From Peribolospora baueri (Eukaryota; Basidiomycota; Peribolosporomycetes; Peribolosporales; Peribolosporaceae): 64,000 bases of DNA. Shown one piece after another: positions 35,305-62,646 of this stretch. The notes under the pieces are model-generated. The model was not told the DNA's origin. It made no database searches and was given only the letters and a program-made list of their open reading frames with translations. A program made the translations under genes and the position numbers. Positions within the stretch are counted from its first letter, which is position 1; each line of letters opens with the position of its first letter. The stretch is taken from contig JAMDHS010000049.1 of NCBI GenBank assembly GCA_029717555.1, positions 100,270 to 164,269 on the forward strand, read 5' to 3'.

Positions 35305-37250
35305 ATGTCAAGCAGCGGCAAGAGCGAGGGCGGAAACTCTTCACCACCACCATCACGGCCCACGCCCTCCACTTCTGGCGCCACTAGGACCCTTTACGGC
35401 TATCGCACAAACTCTTTCTCCGGTATCCCTGCCTTGGCCTCATCCAAGAACCCGTTCTCCTTTGGCGCAAGACCCCAGGGCCAGCGCAGCGCTAGCGGCT
35501 CCGCCGAGACCGGTCACTTCTCTCACTTTCCCTCCTCCAGCCCTTCCTCTTCCACCGCCGTCTCTCCGCCCAGACGCGCTGGCACCGAGGGTCCCCCGAC
35601 GCCCACCCGCGGTGCCACCGCTTCCACCCCCATCCACGGAGGCCCCTCCACCGCCGGCCCGACGCGCTCGGCGTCCATGACCAGCGCCCACTCTTCCAAC
35701 CCTTCCGTCTTCGGTGGCCTCTCCAACCTCGGCGGCGAATGGGGCGCCTCCACTCTCTGGGGTCGCGCCCCTCCTTCGAGCACCGCCGGCGGTAGCGTTC
35801 CGGGCAGCGACAGCGGTCCCACCGTCAGGACGCCCGCCGGCGCCTCTCAACTTCCGACCTCTAATGGCTCCGCACCGCCGGCCGAGACGTCGTCCGGCGC
35901 CGCTTATAGGTCGCCTCTCTTGGGCGCCGAGGCGTCCTCCGGCTCTTGGACTCCCGGCCGAGGGCCTCACACGTCCACCTCTTGGCCCAGCGACCTGGCC
36001 AGTCCCACCGGCGACTTTGCCCTCGATCCACAGGTCAGTCCGACGAGGTCCAAGACGGCTAGCATCGACCATGGGGTGAATCGTCCCAGTCCGCCTCGTC
36101 TTCGTCCACTCCTCCCCTCCTCTTTGGACTCGGAGCGCTGACCCGTCGTCTTTCCTTGCTTCCATCGCGTCGCTTTCATGCGCAACGCCTTCCACGCTCT
36201 CCCCTCTTCACCCACAGTCCTCCAACTTTCAGGCCCGTCAACGTCAGGCCGCCGCCGCCGCTGCCCAGGCGGCCGCTTTGGCCGTTCACGCTCCGCACGA
36301 CGATCAGCAAAAACGGATGCACTCCGTCGTTCAGGTCGCGATCGACGATGGAGATCAGACGCCCCCCAGCCTTCGTCACCCCCCGGCTCAAGTCCCGCAG
36401 GCTTTCGACGTCCCGCCGAGACCGACGTCCACTCCACCCGCGGGCCTCAACGCCGCGAGCGCGGTGCCATTCATTCCCCAGTCTCATCAGTCGGTCCCCC
36501 AGCAGGCACCCCCTATACGGTCCATCTCCATGGACCAGCCGCCCAGCCAGCCACGCCGTCCTGAAGCCAGCGAGAGCGGCCTCCGCATGCATCCGATGGG
36601 GCCCGAGGCCGACTTGATGCTCGGCTTCCGCGCAATGACCACCGCCGATGACTACCCAGCCTACCCCGCCCCCCCCGCCGCTTCCCATCAGCCTTCGCAG
36701 CAGCAGACGCCCATGACCCAACTCTCACCGTCGCAACAGCCCGAGCACCAGCACCAGCACCAGCACCAGCAGCACATGCATCGACCCCGCCACGTCTCCG
36801 GCCCATCTCCGGTGTATGGCTACCCCATGGAAGCCTACGCCCCGACCGCGCCTCAATACTACCTTCCCGGTACACCCAGCCCGGAGACGTACGCCGGCGA
36901 ATACGGTGTCGACATACCCGGATACGAATCTTACCGTCCCACGTCTGACCCGTATGCCTCTGCTGGCCCCATTCGTCCCATGTTCCCTCCGCCTGCGCTC
37001 GCCTCGGCGGGTCCGAGCGGCCCGATGGGGCGTCCGCCTCCGCCCCCGCCCCCGCCGCCGATGCACCCCGCCGCCGGACTGCCGCGCAGCCAGTCGGCCG
37101 TGCAAGTGTACGACTATTCCCCGTACATGGCCGCTCGGCCACCCTATCCACCCTACGGCCCGCCGCCGCCGATGATGGTGCCGGCGCCGCCACCCCATAT
37201 GGTCTACCCACCTCCGAGTCCCCTCGCGCCCAGCAACCCTGCGGTGGCCG

Positions 37251-37281
<31 letters not shown>

Positions 37282-39065
37282 GAACCTGGACGAGAAAAAG
37301 CGCAATCTGCGTACCCACCAGATGTTGCTCCAGCAACAGCAACACCAACTCACCCACCAGCAGCAGATGCTTGCCGCCAGCATCCGGCGGCAGCACTCGG
37401 TACCCGAGATGGGTCCCTCCCAAGCGGCCGCCGCCACAGGCGCCGTCGGCTTCCATCCCGGTCCTCCCCAGCTCGCTCATCCTCAAGCCCACCACCATCC
37501 CTCCCACCCTCACGGCCCTCCCATCCATCCCGCCCACCCTCACGCCCATCCAGGCGCTCCCCACCGCGGCGGTCCCCAGCCCCGACCTCACATCGTCGGC
37601 GCACCCGGCCGTCGACCGTACAGCATGGGTGACAACCCCCTGCGCTCTTCCTTGCTCGAAGAGTTCCGCAGCCGGCGCACGCGGCGGTACGAGCTGTCGG
37701 ACCTGTTCGGACACGTGGTCGAGTTCAGCACCGACCAGCACGGCAGTCGGTTCATCCAGGAGAAGCTCGACCCGGCGACGACGGAGGAGAAGGAAAAGGT
37801 GTTCGAAGAGATCTCGCCCAACGCTTTGCGACTCATGGAAGACGTGTTCGGCAACTATGTCATCCAAAAACTCTACGAGCACGGCACAGAGGAACACAAG
37901 GCGATCCTCTCCGACCAGATGGAGGGCCACGTGCTCAGGCTCTCCCTCAGCACGTACGGCTGCAGGGTGGTCCAGAAGGCGCTCGAGCATGTCTCGCCCG
38001 AGAGACAGGTCTCCTTGGCCATGGAGCTCGCCGAGCACGTGCTCGAATGCGTCAAGGACCAGAACGCGAACCACGTCATACAGAAGATTATCGAGCTCGT
38101 CCCCGTGCGTCATCGCTCCTTCCCTTCCCGTCTTCTTTCACCGCCGCGTTGGGCTTCTCTGAGTCTTCGTCTCGCGCGTATCGTTCTCTGACACCCGTTT
38201 GTTTTCTGCTCGTCCGCTCGTCCGTCCGCCCTTCCTTGGACACAGTCCGATCGCATCCAATTCATCCCTCACGCCTTCAACGGGCAGGTGTACCAGCTTG
38301 CCGCGCACTGTTACTCGTGTCGCGTGCTCCAGCGGATATTCGAGCATTGCTCCGACGCGCAGAGTCGGCCGCTTCTTGACGAGCTCCAGCGATCCACGCA
38401 GACCCTCATTGAGGACCAGTATGGCAACTACGTCGTCCAATGGGTTCTGGCCAAGGGCTCGCGCGAGGACAAGGTCATGGTGATCTCCAAGGTCCGAGGT
38501 CAGGTGTTGCAGCTGTCCAAGCACAAGTTTGCTTCGAACGTCGTCGAGGAGGTGATCCGCGCCGCATCGTCGAACGACCGTCAGGCGCTGCTCGACGAGA
38601 TTCTCGCCGTCAGGCCGGACGGATCGTCACCGTGCGTGGTGATGATGAAGGACCAGTACGCCAACTACGTCCTCCAGCGCTTCCTCGAGGTCGCCGAGGG
38701 AGAGCAGCGCGCCGTGCTCGTCAGCCGCATCCGGCCTCAGCTCGCGAGCATGAAGAAGTACTCTTCTGGCTACGCTAAGCATCTCACTGCCAGTGAGTGC
38801 CTGCCCCCACTTTCCATCGCTCTCACACACGTAACGTGCCCGCAATGCCGAACGCTGACGTTGACGATCGATGCGCCCTCGCTTCCCCTGCTCGTCTCGT
38901 CCGAATGCAGTCGAAAAACTTCTAGACGATGGACCTGGCGAGCTGCCTTGTCCCGGGCGGGCCTCGTCGACAGCGATCGAGGCGACACCCGCCGTATCCT
39001 CCTCCGCTTCCACGCCCGCCGACCTCGGTGCCTCAGCGAGGAGCGCTCTGGGCGAGTCTCGATGA
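35305..39065 (+). CDS. Pumilio (PUF) family RNA-binding protein
   Basis: Sequence-specific 3'-UTR binding repressor of mRNAs. Four exons (35305-36033, 36218-38104, 38246-38792, 38911-39065) splice to 3,318 nt (1,105 aa), with every junction in phase. The first 700 residues are disordered: Ser/Pro/Gly-rich, then an HQHQHQHQ tract, poly-Pro and poly-Ala runs. The Pumilio domain occupies roughly residues 715-1080 with eight repeats. Visible cores include [84 protein letters not shown] and [11 protein letters not shown]. The C-terminus ([15 protein letters not shown] plus a Ser/Ala tail) comes from the last exon. The ATG at 35305 was chosen because the frame upstream translates only a poly-pyrimidine tract. 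Arrangement fits the Puf3/Pumilio class; the exact orthologue is not decided. Confidence 0.94.
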
Positions 39066-51761: not shown

Positions 51762-54700
51762 ATGCGCCTTGCCCCTTCCCCTTCCTCCATCGCCCCCTCC
51801 ATTGCCCGTACCTCCGCCCGGATCATCGCCAGGCCCTACTCCTCCACCTGCGCCGCTCTTGATCATCGGAAGCTAGCAACCGTACGGCCCGGGGAGCCTT
51901 CATATCGGAGCTCATCGCTGTTGCCTCGTGCCGGACATGGTCTACTCCGTCCCTTTCACGCCTCCTCGGAGGCGAGAAGGTCGGCGAGCAAGAAGATGAG
52001 GGAGGCTAGGAGGGAGCAGAGGGAAAGAAGAAATGCCGCCGGCGTACCCGTGTTTCCCGACCTTCCTGTTCAAGACGCCGACCACTCTTCCGCTCGATCC
52101 TCTCCCCAAGCAATGGCGTCACGGCGACCAGCTTTCAAAGGTCCCCCCACGGGCCCACCCGACTTCACCAACCCCGAGCCGACCGGGCTGGCAGGCGTGT
52201 CCCGTCATCTCCTCCGGCAGCTTGAGTCCTTCGTGAGTGACGAGGACGGGGAGGTGGTGCGTCGCCTGGGGACGGGAGGATACGGCGTTGGAGGCAAGGC
52301 CATCGAACGCCTCGTGCGACTTGTCGACCCGGATGCCGTGCAGGTGAAAGGCCCAGAAGGGACGAGGGCGCTGTTGAGAGCGTGGAAGGAGGAAGTGGAG
52401 GGAGGACTCGAAGAACGTAAAATCCGCTACAAGGCGAAGCTCGCAAAGCAGGAGGGAAGCACCGCAGCGGAGAGCTGGGGCGTCATCGCAAGAGACGGAT
52501 CCATCGATGTTAGAGCGGTGGCTGCGTCTTTCGATTCGGAAGGCGCGTTGGCCATCACGCGAACCCTCTTGCTCTCCTTCCTCCACTGGGTCGTCCGTAG
52601 TCTGGCCGCCATGCCCTCCCACCTGTCTACCACCGCTTCCGACACCCTCCAAGCCCACCTTCTCTCCCTGCTGTCCAACACCGACCTTCGCCACCCGCAT
52701 GAATTCTACCCCCTAGCCCGCGCCATCAAGCGCACCATCCACCTCCACGTCGGCCCGACGAACTCTGGCAAGACGTATCACGCCCTGCTCGCCCTCGTTC
52801 GCGCTCGCACCGGCGTCTACGCCGGCCCTCTCCGCTTGCTCGCCCACGAGGTTTTTGAGCGCGTCAACAAGGGCACCATCGCCGCTCCCGGCGTCGTGCC
52901 TCCTCGAGCGTGCAACCTGTTGACGGGCGAGGAACAGAAGGAGGTCGATCCCTTCGCCGGAATCTACGCCTGTACCGTCGAGATGGTCAACCTGAACCGC
53001 GCCGTCGACGTGGCTGTCATCGATGAGATACAGATGATCGGCGACCCTGCACGCGGCTTCGCTTGGACCACTGCCGTGCTCGGCGTGCCCGCCAGGGAGA
53101 TCCACCTCTGCGGCGAGGCGTCGGTGGTACCGTTGATCCGATCGCTCTCCGAGCAGACCGGAGACGATTTTGTCCTTCACAACTACGAGCGCCTTTCCCC
53201 GCTCACCGTCTCCCCTACCTCCCTCTCCAGCGATCTCTCCAACGTCCGCAGGGGAGATTGCGTCGTCACCTTTGCTCGCTCTAACATCTTTGCGGTCAAG
53301 AACGAGATCGAGGCGCGCACCGGCCTCAAGTGCGCCGTCGCCTACGGAGGCTTGCCACCCGAGACGAGGAGCGAGCAAGCTAGGCTCTTCAACGAGAGTC
53401 TCGTCAAGGAGGACGGAGAAGGCCTGTACGACGTCATGGTCGCTAGCGACGCCATCGGAATGGGTCTCAATTTGTGCGTGCCGTTTTTGCCCCGCCCTTC
53501 CCGTTTCTTAGGCGCTTGCTCGCTTCCTCATCTCACCGCAGTGGGAATCGTCGTGATCGTGCTCACACCGTTCCCTTCCTTCGCCTGCCCCCCCGCGCCC
53601 TTAACGCCATCTCAGGAAAATCAATCGCGTCGTCTTCGAGACGGTTTCAAAATGGGATGGCCAACGGATGGTAAGGCTCTCTGCGTCTCAGATCAAGCAG
53701 ATCGCCGGAAGGGCGGGTCGGTACGGCACCAAGGGTGGAGGAGAGGTGACCACGCTCCACGACCGCGACTTGCCCATCCTCGAGGCCGCCCTCGAGGCGC
53801 CCTTGACGGCCGTACCTCGCGCTGCCATCGCACCTACGAGCAACATGCTTTCTTCGCTCGCTCAACAGCTTGCCATCAGGTCTTCCTCATCTCCTCCACG
53901 GCCGTCCGCCTCCGCCTCCTCTGCTGCCGACGAGTCTGCCCCTTCTACCTCGCTGTCCTCTATCTTTGCTCATGTCGCCCTCCTCAGCCAAGTCCGTCCT
54001 TCGACATACTATGTCTCCGCCTTTTCGCAGCAGATGAACATCTCCCCCCTCATCGAAGAACGCAGTCGACAAGCTGGCGTCTCCCTGACGATCGCCGAAA
54101 AGGAGTGCTTCTGCAACGCGCCCGCCAATATCAGAGACGAGCGCGTCCAAGAGGTCATGGGCAGGTTCGTCGAGGCGTACGGGAGCGGGCGGATTGCGAA
54201 CATTGAAGAAGGTGTGGAGGGCTTGGATATGATGGAGGCGCTCGCGGAGATTTGGCAGATGCGCCAAGATACCATACGCCAGAGGGATGAGCGGCTTGCG
54301 CGCGAGGGCCAGGTAGCGGCGACGACGACGACGGCCGACGCGGCCGAAGAGGAAGATGGGGCCAAGGACGTCACCGTCGCTGGCGCCTCAAGCATATCGT
54401 CGCTCGGTCCGGTGGACTTTGATAAGGACCTGCCGCCGGATCGGAGTGCCTTGTCGACACAGACGCTCATGGTCTTAGAGTCCCTACACCGCACGCTCAC
54501 CCTCTATCTCTGGCTCTCCTACCGATACCAACTCACCTTCTGCCATGCCGACGACGCACGGGCGTACAAACTCAAGACGGAGGAGGCGATCGAGTTCTGT
54601 CTTGAGGGCATCCGCTCCGAGCGCAGGAGGCGCGTCTCCAAACGTCTTGCTGAGGCCGCTCAGATGGGCGAGACGCTCACGCCCGGAAAGAGGTGGGGCG

Positions 54701-56959
54701 CGCCGGAGGATGGCGACGTCGGTCGTAGGTCCTCGGGGCGACCGAGGATTGGCGGCTTCTATGAGAGACCGTCGCCCCTCCACGCGCCTTCCTCACAGCG
54801 TTCCTTCCACACCTCCGTCGCGCGGCCCGCTTCCGACCGACTGTATGACGCCCCCCTACCGACGTCACCGCCACAGGCATCGCCTCACACTTTCGCTGTC
54901 CTGGGCGGAGGCATCTCCGGCCTCGCCGCCGCGTACTACCTAGCTCGTACCTTGCGTCGCGGCGACAAGAGGCAGCGGGAAAGCAGAGTCGTGCTCCTCG
55001 AGGCTGGTGACCGCCTCGGTGGGTGGATAGAGTCGAAACGTGTCGAGCTACAGCTGCCCGGCGGAACGTCAGGCGGCGAAGGAGGCGGAGGGACGAACAA
55101 GGTCAGCCTGCTCTTCGAGAGCGGGCCTAGGAGCTTGAGGCCGGCTGGGTTGTCGGGAATGATCGCGCTTGATCTGGTGAGCTCGCTCGCGGATTGGAAC
55201 GTAGCAAAGGATTGAGGAAGGGCTGTGGCCTCTTGCCCGGCGGTGTATGTGTGTATGTTCCTTCTCCGGCCGTGCGCTCGTTCTTAAAATTGATCGTCCC
55301 TCCCCACTTGCCGCCCGGCTTCCTTGGTCCTCGCTCACACTGCATCCCAGATTTCCGAACTTGGTCTCGTCCCCGACCTCCACGTCGTCCCGCGCTCCCA
55401 CCCTTCCGCAAAGAATCGGTTCATTTACTTCCCGGACCGCCTCAACCGGCTTCCCTCTTCCCTTCCATCTCTCCTCGCCTCCCTCTTCCGCCCACCGCCC
55501 GTCCTCAAAGGTGTGGCGTCTGGCGTTCTCAGAGAACCTTTCATTCCGCCCAGCTCTCCCGCCCTAAGGGACGAGTCCGTGGACTCGTTCGTTTCGCGCA
55601 GGTTCGGCCACCCGATGGCGCGCAACTTGGTGTCTGCGGTCCTGCACGGCATCTACGCCGGCGATGCTCGCTTGCTCTCCGTGCGCTCCGTCCTCCCGTT
55701 CCTGTGGAACGCCGAGCGCTCTCATGGGGGTGTGCTCAGGGCTTTGTTGTCTGCCCGTATGCGGACCGAGAGGGGGTTCGTGAAGGAGAAGGAAGGGCGA
55801 ACGGGCAGTGGAGCACGAGAGACGACGGCCCGCGAACAGAAGAGCGCAGACCGGCTAGAGGAGGAGAGATTGAGGGCCCACCTGCCCGAGAGCCTGGCAA
55901 AGGTCATTGGGGGCGCGAGTATCTATTCCTTCCGAGACGGCATCCAGACGCTCATCGACGCTCTGGAGCGGCAAGTAGGGGCGCTCGGCGTTCAAGTTTG
56001 CAAGGGCGCGCTGGAAGGGAAAGTGATTGGCGTCGCTAAAGGCAGCGGGAGTGGTGATCGAGTTCAGGCGAGTACCCCCCCCTCCCCCCTTGCGCCGGCG
56101 TGTCTCTTGTTTATACACGCTCATATAGTAGGAGGAGCATTGACACCCCCTTTCTTGATCTTCGATCCCACTCTCTCCAACCCAGGTGATCACCCCGGCC
56201 GGTCGAATCTCAGCCGACCACGTCATCTCCGCTCTGCCCAGCAACACTTTAGACGGCATCCTTTCCTCAACACCCCTCCGTCTTCCCCATCTAAGCCACA
56301 ATCACGCTGTCGACGTGGGCGTCGTCCATGTCGCCCTCGCGCCCAAGGCAGACGGCGAGAGCGTCCTTCCTGTGCGTGGGTTCGGTCACCTCGTCCCTCG
56401 GTCTACGCCGGATAACGAGGACGGGATCCTGGGTATCGTGTACGACAGCGATTCTTTGCCGACTTTGGACCGGTATGAACCGCAGGATCGAGGTCTTGAC
56501 GTCGTCAGGACGGGCCCGACGACGGTCTCAGCGGTGCAACCGGCCATGGTCCCTACCAAAGTGACCGTCATGATCGGCGGCGCTCACTGGTCCTCCCTTT
56601 CTCTCGATCAACTTCCCACCGAGGCAGAGCTCGTGAATCGTGCCTTGAAGGCCCTCGAGACGCATCTGGACGTCCCCAGGGACGCGCTTCGCCCTCCGCT
56701 TTACTGTGAAGCTAAGCTACACCGCCGGTGCATCCCGCAGTACCTCGTGGGCCACATAGACCGGATGAAAGAACTGGACGCGGCGCTGAGGGCGAGCGCG
56801 AACGACGACGGCCATCTCGCCGGTCGTCTCAGTCTCGTCGGAGCGAGCTACAGCGGCGTGAGTGTGAACGACTGCATCCGGGGCGCCAAGGAAGTCGCGG
56901 AGGCGCTCGCCAGCGGGCGGACGGTGACGGGCTTGGAGCGGTTCACGGTCATGGACTGA
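51762..56959 (+). CDS. SUV3-HEM14: Fusion of mitochondrial RNA helicase Suv3 and protoporphyrinogen oxidase Hem14
   Basis: Four exons (51762-53473, 53616-55176, 55351-56067, 56186-56959) give one frame of 1,588 codons including the stop. The N-terminus is Ser/Arg-rich, like a mitochondrial presequence. Suv3 helicase: HLHVGPTNSGKTYHALLAL (Walker A), VAVIDEIQMIGDPARGF (DEIQ box), LKCAVAYGGLPPETR, VASDAIGMGLNL, QIAGRAGRYG, and the C-terminal LYLWLSYRYQL. At residue about 995 the FAD-binding motif of Hem14 begins (FAVLGGGISGLAAAYYLAR), then LLEAGDRLGGWIES, FESGPRSLRP, and in the last exon VITPAGRISADHVISALP and GRLSLVGASYSGVSVNDCI. No stop lies between the two. A segment just before it, SSQRSFHTSVARPASD, looks like a former mitochondrial presequence. 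Intron 3 uses a GC donor (GCGAGT). Suv3 degrades mitochondrial RNA; Hem14 makes protoporphyrin IX. Both enzymes are mitochondrial. Confidence 0.92.
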
Positions 56960-61179: not shown

Positions 61180-62646
61180 ATGAACGCTGAGGAAGAAGGT
61201 AAGCCAGCCGGTCGAGTCGGATCGACGTAGACGGGAAACGTAGCCCCGGATCATGCTGATCGTCTTTCCGTCGCCGCCGCCGCCGCCGCCGCCCCGGACA
61301 GAGCATCTCATCAAAACCCGCCTCTCGGTGGACGAGCGGCCGCTCAAGAAGCTCGTCAAGAAGCTCGTCGCTCTCGCCTCCCCCGCGCCCGAGGGACAGG
61401 GGCACGACAGGAACGAGGAGGACCTGTGAGTGTTGCACGTCGTCATTCGTCGAGCAGACCGGAGCCGGCCGGTACGGTACGGCAAGCTGATCCCTCCCTC
61501 CTTCCTTCCCTGTCGCCCAGGGAACTTCTTCACCACGCCTTCCTAGTGGACCTACAGTCCTATGAGCTTCTCCTTTCTCGCATGGTCTCCTCTGCCCGGA
61601 CGGCCGAGAAGGAGATCGGGAGGTACGAAGAGGAGCGAGTACGGATGGGTGAGTCGTCGCCGCACGCCTCCTTCCTCCTCGCGGTCGTCCTTCCAACTCT
61701 TTTTTGCTTTCCTTCTTTGGGATGCCCAGAATCCGAGCACCGCACTGTCACTCAGACCATCTCCCGCCTCCATGCCACCCTCTCCTCCGTCCTCCTCGAG
61801 CGAGAACACAAGCTCGCCTACGACCTCGTCGCCCGCTCCATCAGCTCCCACCCACCCCGCTCCGAGTTGGCCACTTCGATCGATCGCCTGCACGAGTCTG
61901 TCGAGGAGCTCAAGGCGGAGAAGGAGGGATACGAGAGCGTGCGCAGAGAGAGCCATGCCAAGTTCTCCGCCGTCTTGGACGGCTTGGTGGCGCTGAGAGA
62001 GAGCGTGGGGGAGGAGGTGGGGAGGAGAGAGAGGAGGGAGGTGGAGAGGGCCGAGGGAGACGGTGACGGTGACGGTGATGGAGATGGAGACGGAGAGGGA
62101 GACGGCGACGGCGATGCCGACGTCAAGGACGCTGACGCCGTTGGCGAGGACCAGCGCGTCGGCGGCGTCGATCTGCATAGCGACGCCGCCGACGCTCCCT
62201 CTTCTTCCCAGACCACACGGCTGACGCGCGAAACGTCAGGCCGTTCCGTCGGTCCGTCAGCCACCATCACTTCCCTCAACCCTACCGCCCCGGCGTTCAC
62301 CTATCGGGGCTCCTCGTCGGCGCCCATGGCCTCCTCCTCCCCGCGAAACGCGTCCAGGACGTCCTCTCCGCGTCGAGGGACGGGCGCCAATGGACCGCGG
62401 CCCGCCGGCTCACAACGGGAGGACGGAGAAGAGGGAGAGGAGGAGGAGGAGGAGGAGGACGTGGAGATGCGCGATGGCGACGTGCGAAGGAACCGGACTC
62501 AGAGAGGCGGGGGCGCAGCCGGGGTCCGTCACGCGACGACGCTTCAACGAGGAGGACGGGAGCAGAGCGACGAAGAGGGAGAGGTGGGCGAAGAGGGCGA
62601 GGGCGAGGGCGAGGAGGGCGAGGTACGGGCGATGGACATTGGCTAG
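61180..62646 (+). CDS. THOC7: THO complex subunit 7 (Tho7/Mft1 family)
   Basis: Subunit of the THO/TREX complex that couples transcription to mRNA export. Exons 61180-61198, 61302-61425, 61521-61648 and 61730-62646 splice to 1,188 nt (395 aa) with all phases consistent. The first exon is only 19 nt. The conserved part is residues about 6-175: EHLIKTRLSVDERPLKKLVK, LLHHAFLVDLQSYELLLSRM, HRTVTQTISRLHATLSSVLL, KLAYDLVARSISSHPPRSEL and IDRLHESVEELKAEKEGYES. This is a long coiled coil typical of Tho7. The tail is acidic and disordered, with a GDGDGDGD run and an EEEEEEEEDVEM run. The C-terminus ends RAMDIG. The Asp-Gly run is coded by a GACGGT-type hexanucleotide repeat. Confidence 0.88.
61272..61293. 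repeat. CGC microsatellite at the end of THOC7 intron 1
   Basis: Seven CGC/GCC units lie just upstream of the exon 2 acceptor at 61301, where a pyrimidine tract would normally be. Confidence 0.75.

Follow-up and report, generated by a model that had tools for sequence, protein, structure and literature searches.

A 64,000-nucleotide (nt) stretch of the Peribolospora baueri genome (Basidiomycota; contig JAMDHS010000049.1, positions 100,270 to 164,269; hereafter the window, to which the positions below refer) holds the RNA helicase SUV3 and the heme-synthesis enzyme HEM14 in one reading frame. The frame runs SUV3 first and HEM14 second on the forward strand (51762-56959), in four exons without an internal stop, and its joined exons amount to 4764 nt, or 1587 amino acids (aa) and a stop. 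We confirm that this fused frame is real. An initial annotation made from the letters of the window had proposed it, and that gene model was correct: the exon coordinates, the 1561-nt exon and the consistent splice phases were all reproduced, and both domain sets lie in one stop-free frame. Judging by their families, the two proteins so joined would both be mitochondrial. We suggest, with moderate confidence, that the gene encodes a mitochondrial tandem precursor, which would be cut at a retained HEM14 presequence into SUV3 and HEM14.

The identity of the two halves is clear from their domains. In the SUV3 half the DEXQ core, Helicase_C (aa 494-608, above the Pfam cut-off) and SUV3_C domains are all present, while Suv3_C_1 falls marginally below its cut-off (22.3 vs 22.5 bits). 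This half matches the SUPV3L1 structure 7w1r (E 5.1e-89, best stretch aa 306-656). The HEM14 half, which carries the flavin adenine dinucleotide (FAD) motif GGGISGL and a full-length Amino_oxidase domain alignable to PPOX, matches the PPOX structure 3nks in three stretches (E 9.1e-58), and the SUPV3L1 and PPOX structures together cover most of each half's core. A second copy of either gene was not found in the 22.1 Mb genome (178 contigs), where SUV3_C has one match and the HEM14 matches are confined to the fusion locus. Two introns are of the GT-AG and one of the GC-AG type, none of the three contains a CTRAY branch site, and the frame is kept across all three splice junctions, each of which lies inside one of the two proteins. 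At least 7 kb of window sequence flanks the locus on both sides (Table 1).

Table 1. Features of the SUV3-HEM14 gene, in window positions
Feature	Position	Strand	Evidence
Exon 1: presequence, SUV3 N-terminal region, DEXQ helicase core, start of Helicase_C	51762..53473	+	reading frame, Pfam
RPYSST, aa 24-29, N-terminal cutting-motif candidate	51831..51848	+	motif scan
RPFHAS, aa 63-68, second N-terminal cutting-motif candidate	51948..51965	+	motif scan
DEXQc_Suv3 domain, aa 312-475	52695..53186	+	Pfam E 5.4e-63; SUPV3L1 structures
Intron 1, 142 nt, GTGCGT..TCTCAG	53474..53615	+	reading frame
Exon 2, 1561 nt: SUV3 remainder, linker, HEM14 FAD-binding start; stop-free in frame	53616..55176	+	reading frame
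SUV3_C domain, aa 855-901	54466..54606	+	Pfam; sole match in genome
Linker, aa 902-997: SUV3 tail and apparent former HEM14 presequence	54607..54894	+	frame, codon and tail-length analyses
M921, sole in-frame ATG of linker; next at 55159, past FAD motif	54664..54666	+	frame scan
RSFHTS, aa 966-971, internal MPP/Icp55-like motif	54799..54816	+	motif scan
HEM14 Amino_oxidase domain, aa 1004-1571, across introns 2 and 3	54913..56908	+	Pfam E 1.4e-31; PPOX 3nks E 9.1e-58
Intron 2, 174 nt, GTGAGC..TCCCAG	55177..55350	+	reading frame
Exon 3, HEM14	55351..56067	+	reading frame, HEM14 matches
Intron 3, 118 nt, GC-AG type, GCGAGT..ACCCAG	56068..56185	+	reading frame
Exon 4, HEM14 C-terminus and stop	56186..56959	+	reading frame, HEM14 matches

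The linker between the halves behaves as coding sequence. Its openness by itself was discarded as proof of fusion: the DNA is GC-rich, 538 of 2000 dinucleotide shuffles of the 95-codon linker and 405 of 1723 stretches of the same window are stop-free in a given frame, and the +1 frame across the linker is open too, so that openness is weak evidence. More telling are its composition and codon preference. GC content at third codon positions is identical, at 0.74, in the linker and in the whole gene, and when codon preferences are learned from the gene with aa 881-1000 excluded, frame 0 scores highest in all three linker windows (0.45, 0.24 and 0.12, against 0.10, 0.14 and 0.01 for the best other frame), its margin narrowing towards the joint; outside the linker frame 0 belongs to the training set, so its lead there (with one tie) is uninformative. 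Partnerless SUV3 proteins end a median of 32 residues past the equivalent of aa 901 (quartiles 31 and 76; 95 of 119 measured, 24 having no anchor, and the largest values probably mis-anchored), and RSFHTS begins 65 residues after that point. The linker would therefore be made up of an SUV3 tail of ordinary length followed by a stretch about as long as a presequence, which leaves nothing over for a spacer.

These properties bear on the very unlikely explanation that an assembly or base error deleted the SUV3 stop or a spacer between two normal genes. Such an error would be in keeping with an assembly in 178 contigs, but the linker shows the gene's own codon preference, comparable joints occur in relatives (see below), and one lost stop leaves another absence unexplained: downstream of 54664 the frame scan met no in-frame ATG before the HEM14 FAD motif. 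HEM14 thus has no obvious start of its own; it needs either the SUV3 frame or M921.

The dependence on M921 would be realized if the locus yielded two separate products, SUV3 from a transcript that is alternatively spliced or polyadenylated early, and HEM14 by way of an internal promoter and M921. This ATG is in frame, and the intron scan of the linker region, run without a CTRAY requirement as the gene's own introns lack that site, gave five donor-like sites within 54420-54990. Two of them could end SUV3 early when joined to the acceptor ending at 54798: GCGAGA at 54668, one base off the gene's own GC donor GCGAGT, would cause a frameshift with a stop near aa 937, and GTAGGT at 54725 one with a stop near aa 956. 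The remaining donor-like sites are weak, however, and such splices would supply HEM14 with no start. Alternative starts are likewise less well supported, because the first 20 residues from M921 contain four acidic and two basic residues and would make a poor presequence; we consider the two-product arrangement improbable. A further candidate splice, 54718-54798, would shorten the linker and keep the frame.

The acceptor-like site itself, TTCCTCACAG, with its CAG ending at 54798, directly adjoins the RSFHTS codons (54796-54816). It may be what is left of a former intron, or an alternative splice site still in use.

The joint carries a motif resembling those recognized by the matrix processing peptidase (MPP) and Icp55. 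The strict pattern R.[FY][HS][AST][ST] occurs in the 1587 residues only at aa 24, 63 and 966 (0.0265 matches expected per shuffled whole protein) and appears in 106 of 20000 shuffled linkers, the pattern having been picked from general presequence rules after the joint had been seen. The initial annotation had described a presequence-like RSFHTSVAR at this place, and the scan bears it out, in that the joint holds one of three strict matches and the two others lie near the N-terminus.

Protein searches, as the initial annotation had proposed, brought up no further SUV3-HEM14 fusion among the matches listed: all 28 for aa 700-1587, 120 of 1643 for HEM14 and 120 of 7022 for SUV3, with 8000 candidates scored in each and with length limits that let a 1587-aa fusion surface in the first and third of these searches, not in the second. 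What the searches did return were other fusions of the same two proteins. HEM14 is joined to PF02636, which we take to be the family of NDUFAF7, in 19 of the 28 matches to aa 700-1587. Among the matches listed, HEM14-NDUFAF7 fusions comprise P0001-P0019 and P0030, with HEM14 leading (19 of the 20 rows by motif, P0012 by eye) and presequence-like segments such as RGIHT, RAFSTT or RGLHTS at the joint. They resemble SUV3-HEM14 in joining HEM14 to another mitochondrial protein over such a segment, and differ from it in that HEM14 comes first. Thirteen of the 19 rows carry an organism name; those checked, Violaceomyces, Thecaphora and Pseudozyma flocculosa, are Ustilaginomycetes of three orders, and the other six rows were assigned by similarity. 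In P. baueri itself an NDUFAF7-like gene lies on contig 88, separate from HEM14.

A third pair is P0227, in which SUV3 is followed by a C-terminal BolA domain and the joint reads RFFSTS. It shares the order of SUV3 and second domain with the fusion described here, its partner being BolA instead of HEM14. It is the sole case of an added domain among the best 120 of 7022 SUV3 matches, and groups in the SUV3 tree with Microstroma, an Exobasidiomycete (95/88).

The strict motif is found in the junction of 15 of 21 fusions (SUV3-HEM14, P0227 and 13 of 19 HEM14-NDUFAF7 rows), compared with 0.11 expected from shuffled junctions; P0012, whose junction was not recognized by the script and reads RAFSTS by eye, stands outside this count. 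As the 19 HEM14-NDUFAF7 rows are kin and probably descend from one event, no more than three independent fusion events lie behind the number. In the 119 listed partnerless SUV3 proteins, the motif is absent from the last 100 residues, and past residue 100 it occurs once in 78201 aa. HEM14 relatives are of little help: a looser motif precedes the FAD motif in 12 of the 44 that have at least 25 residues there (134 examined; 2.55 expected), yet nine of these are the own N-terminus of HEM14-NDUFAF7 proteins, and the only plain HEM14 rows are P0041 and P0044.

Several observations weigh against cutting at the joint. Plant Icp55, which acts after MPP, is described as recognizing RX(F/Y/I/L) with the cut before (S/A)(S/T), according to PMC8847149; RSF-HTS resembles this motif with H in the place of S/A, as does RPFHAS at aa 63. 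The 40-residue segment that ends with RSFHTS includes four acidic residues and reaches a maximal hydrophobic moment of 0.28, so it is weakly amphipathic; the two N-terminal motif sites give 0.55 and 0.61, the eight HEM14-NDUFAF7 joints measured 0.26-0.65, and P0227 gives 0.42. Six of 19 HEM14-NDUFAF7 joints contain looser motifs and no strict one, and at the DNA level a degenerate form of the pattern is without genome-wide enrichment (266 vs 326 in the reversed control, non-coding sequence counted).

Nevertheless, among the fates that the initial annotation had listed for the product, the internal cut is the best supported, because fusions in relatives carry the same kind of motif at their joints. 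We infer that one gene would give one mRNA and one 1587-residue precursor, the whole of which would be drawn into mitochondria by the SUV3 presequence. MPP would strip the N-terminal presequence and would also cleave the retained HEM14 presequence, after the R-S of R-S-F-H-T-S, and Icp55 would perhaps then trim the F. Freed SUV3 would serve mitochondrial RNA turnover, and freed HEM14 heme synthesis. As to its origin, the two genes probably stood in tandem before the stop of SUV3, the spacer and the start codon of HEM14 were lost; the earlier proposal of a stop lost between such neighbours is a plausible account.

We know of no pathway common to SUV3 and HEM14. This argues against a rather unlikely alternative, in which the product stays uncut as a bifunctional mitochondrial protein and tethers heme synthesis to the RNA helicase at the inner membrane. 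The frame is continuous, the weak amphipathicity of the internal segment would suit a chain left whole, and both halves could share a compartment, as PPOX is reported to face the matrix on the inner membrane (PMC7140478); given that report, topology is no longer counted against the uncut form. Cutting-type motifs are nonetheless present at the joint both here and in the other fusions, and the two precursors most like this one, Arg5,6 and Rsm22-Cox11, are reported to be cut.

Those precursors are the closest parallels to a cut SUV3-HEM14. Arg5,6 likewise holds two mitochondrial enzymes in one frame, although Arg5 and Arg6 belong to one pathway, as SUV3 and HEM14 are not known to do. It is a tandem precursor with a tested internal MPP cut, and Atp25, Etp1 and Rsm22-Cox11 are named as bearing such internal motifs (PMC8847149). 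Rsm22-Cox11 of S. pombe, in which a matrix RNA-related protein precedes an inner-membrane protein in one precursor, is reported to be cut after import with Rsm22 left in the matrix (PMC12375894); apart from the proteins involved, the difference is that its cut was tested, whereas that of SUV3-HEM14 is predicted from sequence.

The pair itself appears to be new. No publication on a SUV3-HEM14 or a HEM14-NDUFAF7 fusion was found in the open-access literature, as covered by titles and the opening of abstracts. The claim of novelty made in the initial annotation therefore stands for the pair, absent from the matches listed and the literature found, and does not extend to mitochondrial tandem precursors as a kind, which are known in yeasts and whose short list SUV3-HEM14 would lengthen. 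Its suggestion of a physical link between RNA turnover and heme synthesis is not supported; if the precursor is cut, the enzymes would share only their mRNA and their ratio of supply.

The three pairs, SUV3-HEM14, HEM14-NDUFAF7 and SUV3-BolA, suggest that neighbouring mitochondrial genes can tolerate fusion when the downstream one brings its own presequence: a stop lost between them would do no lethal harm, since the import protease would separate the two proteins again. It may be, and we put this forward tentatively, that Ustilaginomycotina repeatedly turn mitochondrial neighbour genes into processed tandem precursors, with the downstream presequence kept as an internal cutting site. If true, single genes would supply functionally unrelated mitochondrial proteins together, much as a polyprotein does.

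The HEM14 tree (midpoint root, hand-picked rows) places P. baueri with the Ustilaginomycotina rows and three further rows (99/97), outside the other sixteen (99/98), while the SUV3 trees leave its placement weak (forks 48/60 and 75/95). The searches brought up no near relative: the closest HEM14 matches listed are 42-46% identical. Among the best 120 of 7022 SUV3 matches, identity reaches 50-53% over at least 90% of the query region, and 59-63% over about half of it in Tilletia.

Some joined proteins of other kinds were also seen. HEM14 stands behind a Nab2-like zinc-finger protein in P0021, P0023 and P0024 of the lichen fungi Teloschistaceae, with RPYSTG before HEM14 in P0023, and behind a Suc_Fer domain in P0020 (Bifiguratus); these four may be merged gene models. 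Contig 111 of P. baueri has a second PF02636 gene at 125500-132500, where frames bear RTLHSSS and SSFHSSARR, and the frame next to it presumably resembles TIM44. Elsewhere in the window, the forward strand encodes a PUF-repeat protein (36278-38191) and a frame with THOC7 and TrAA12-like matches, the latter under its cut-off (61426-62646).

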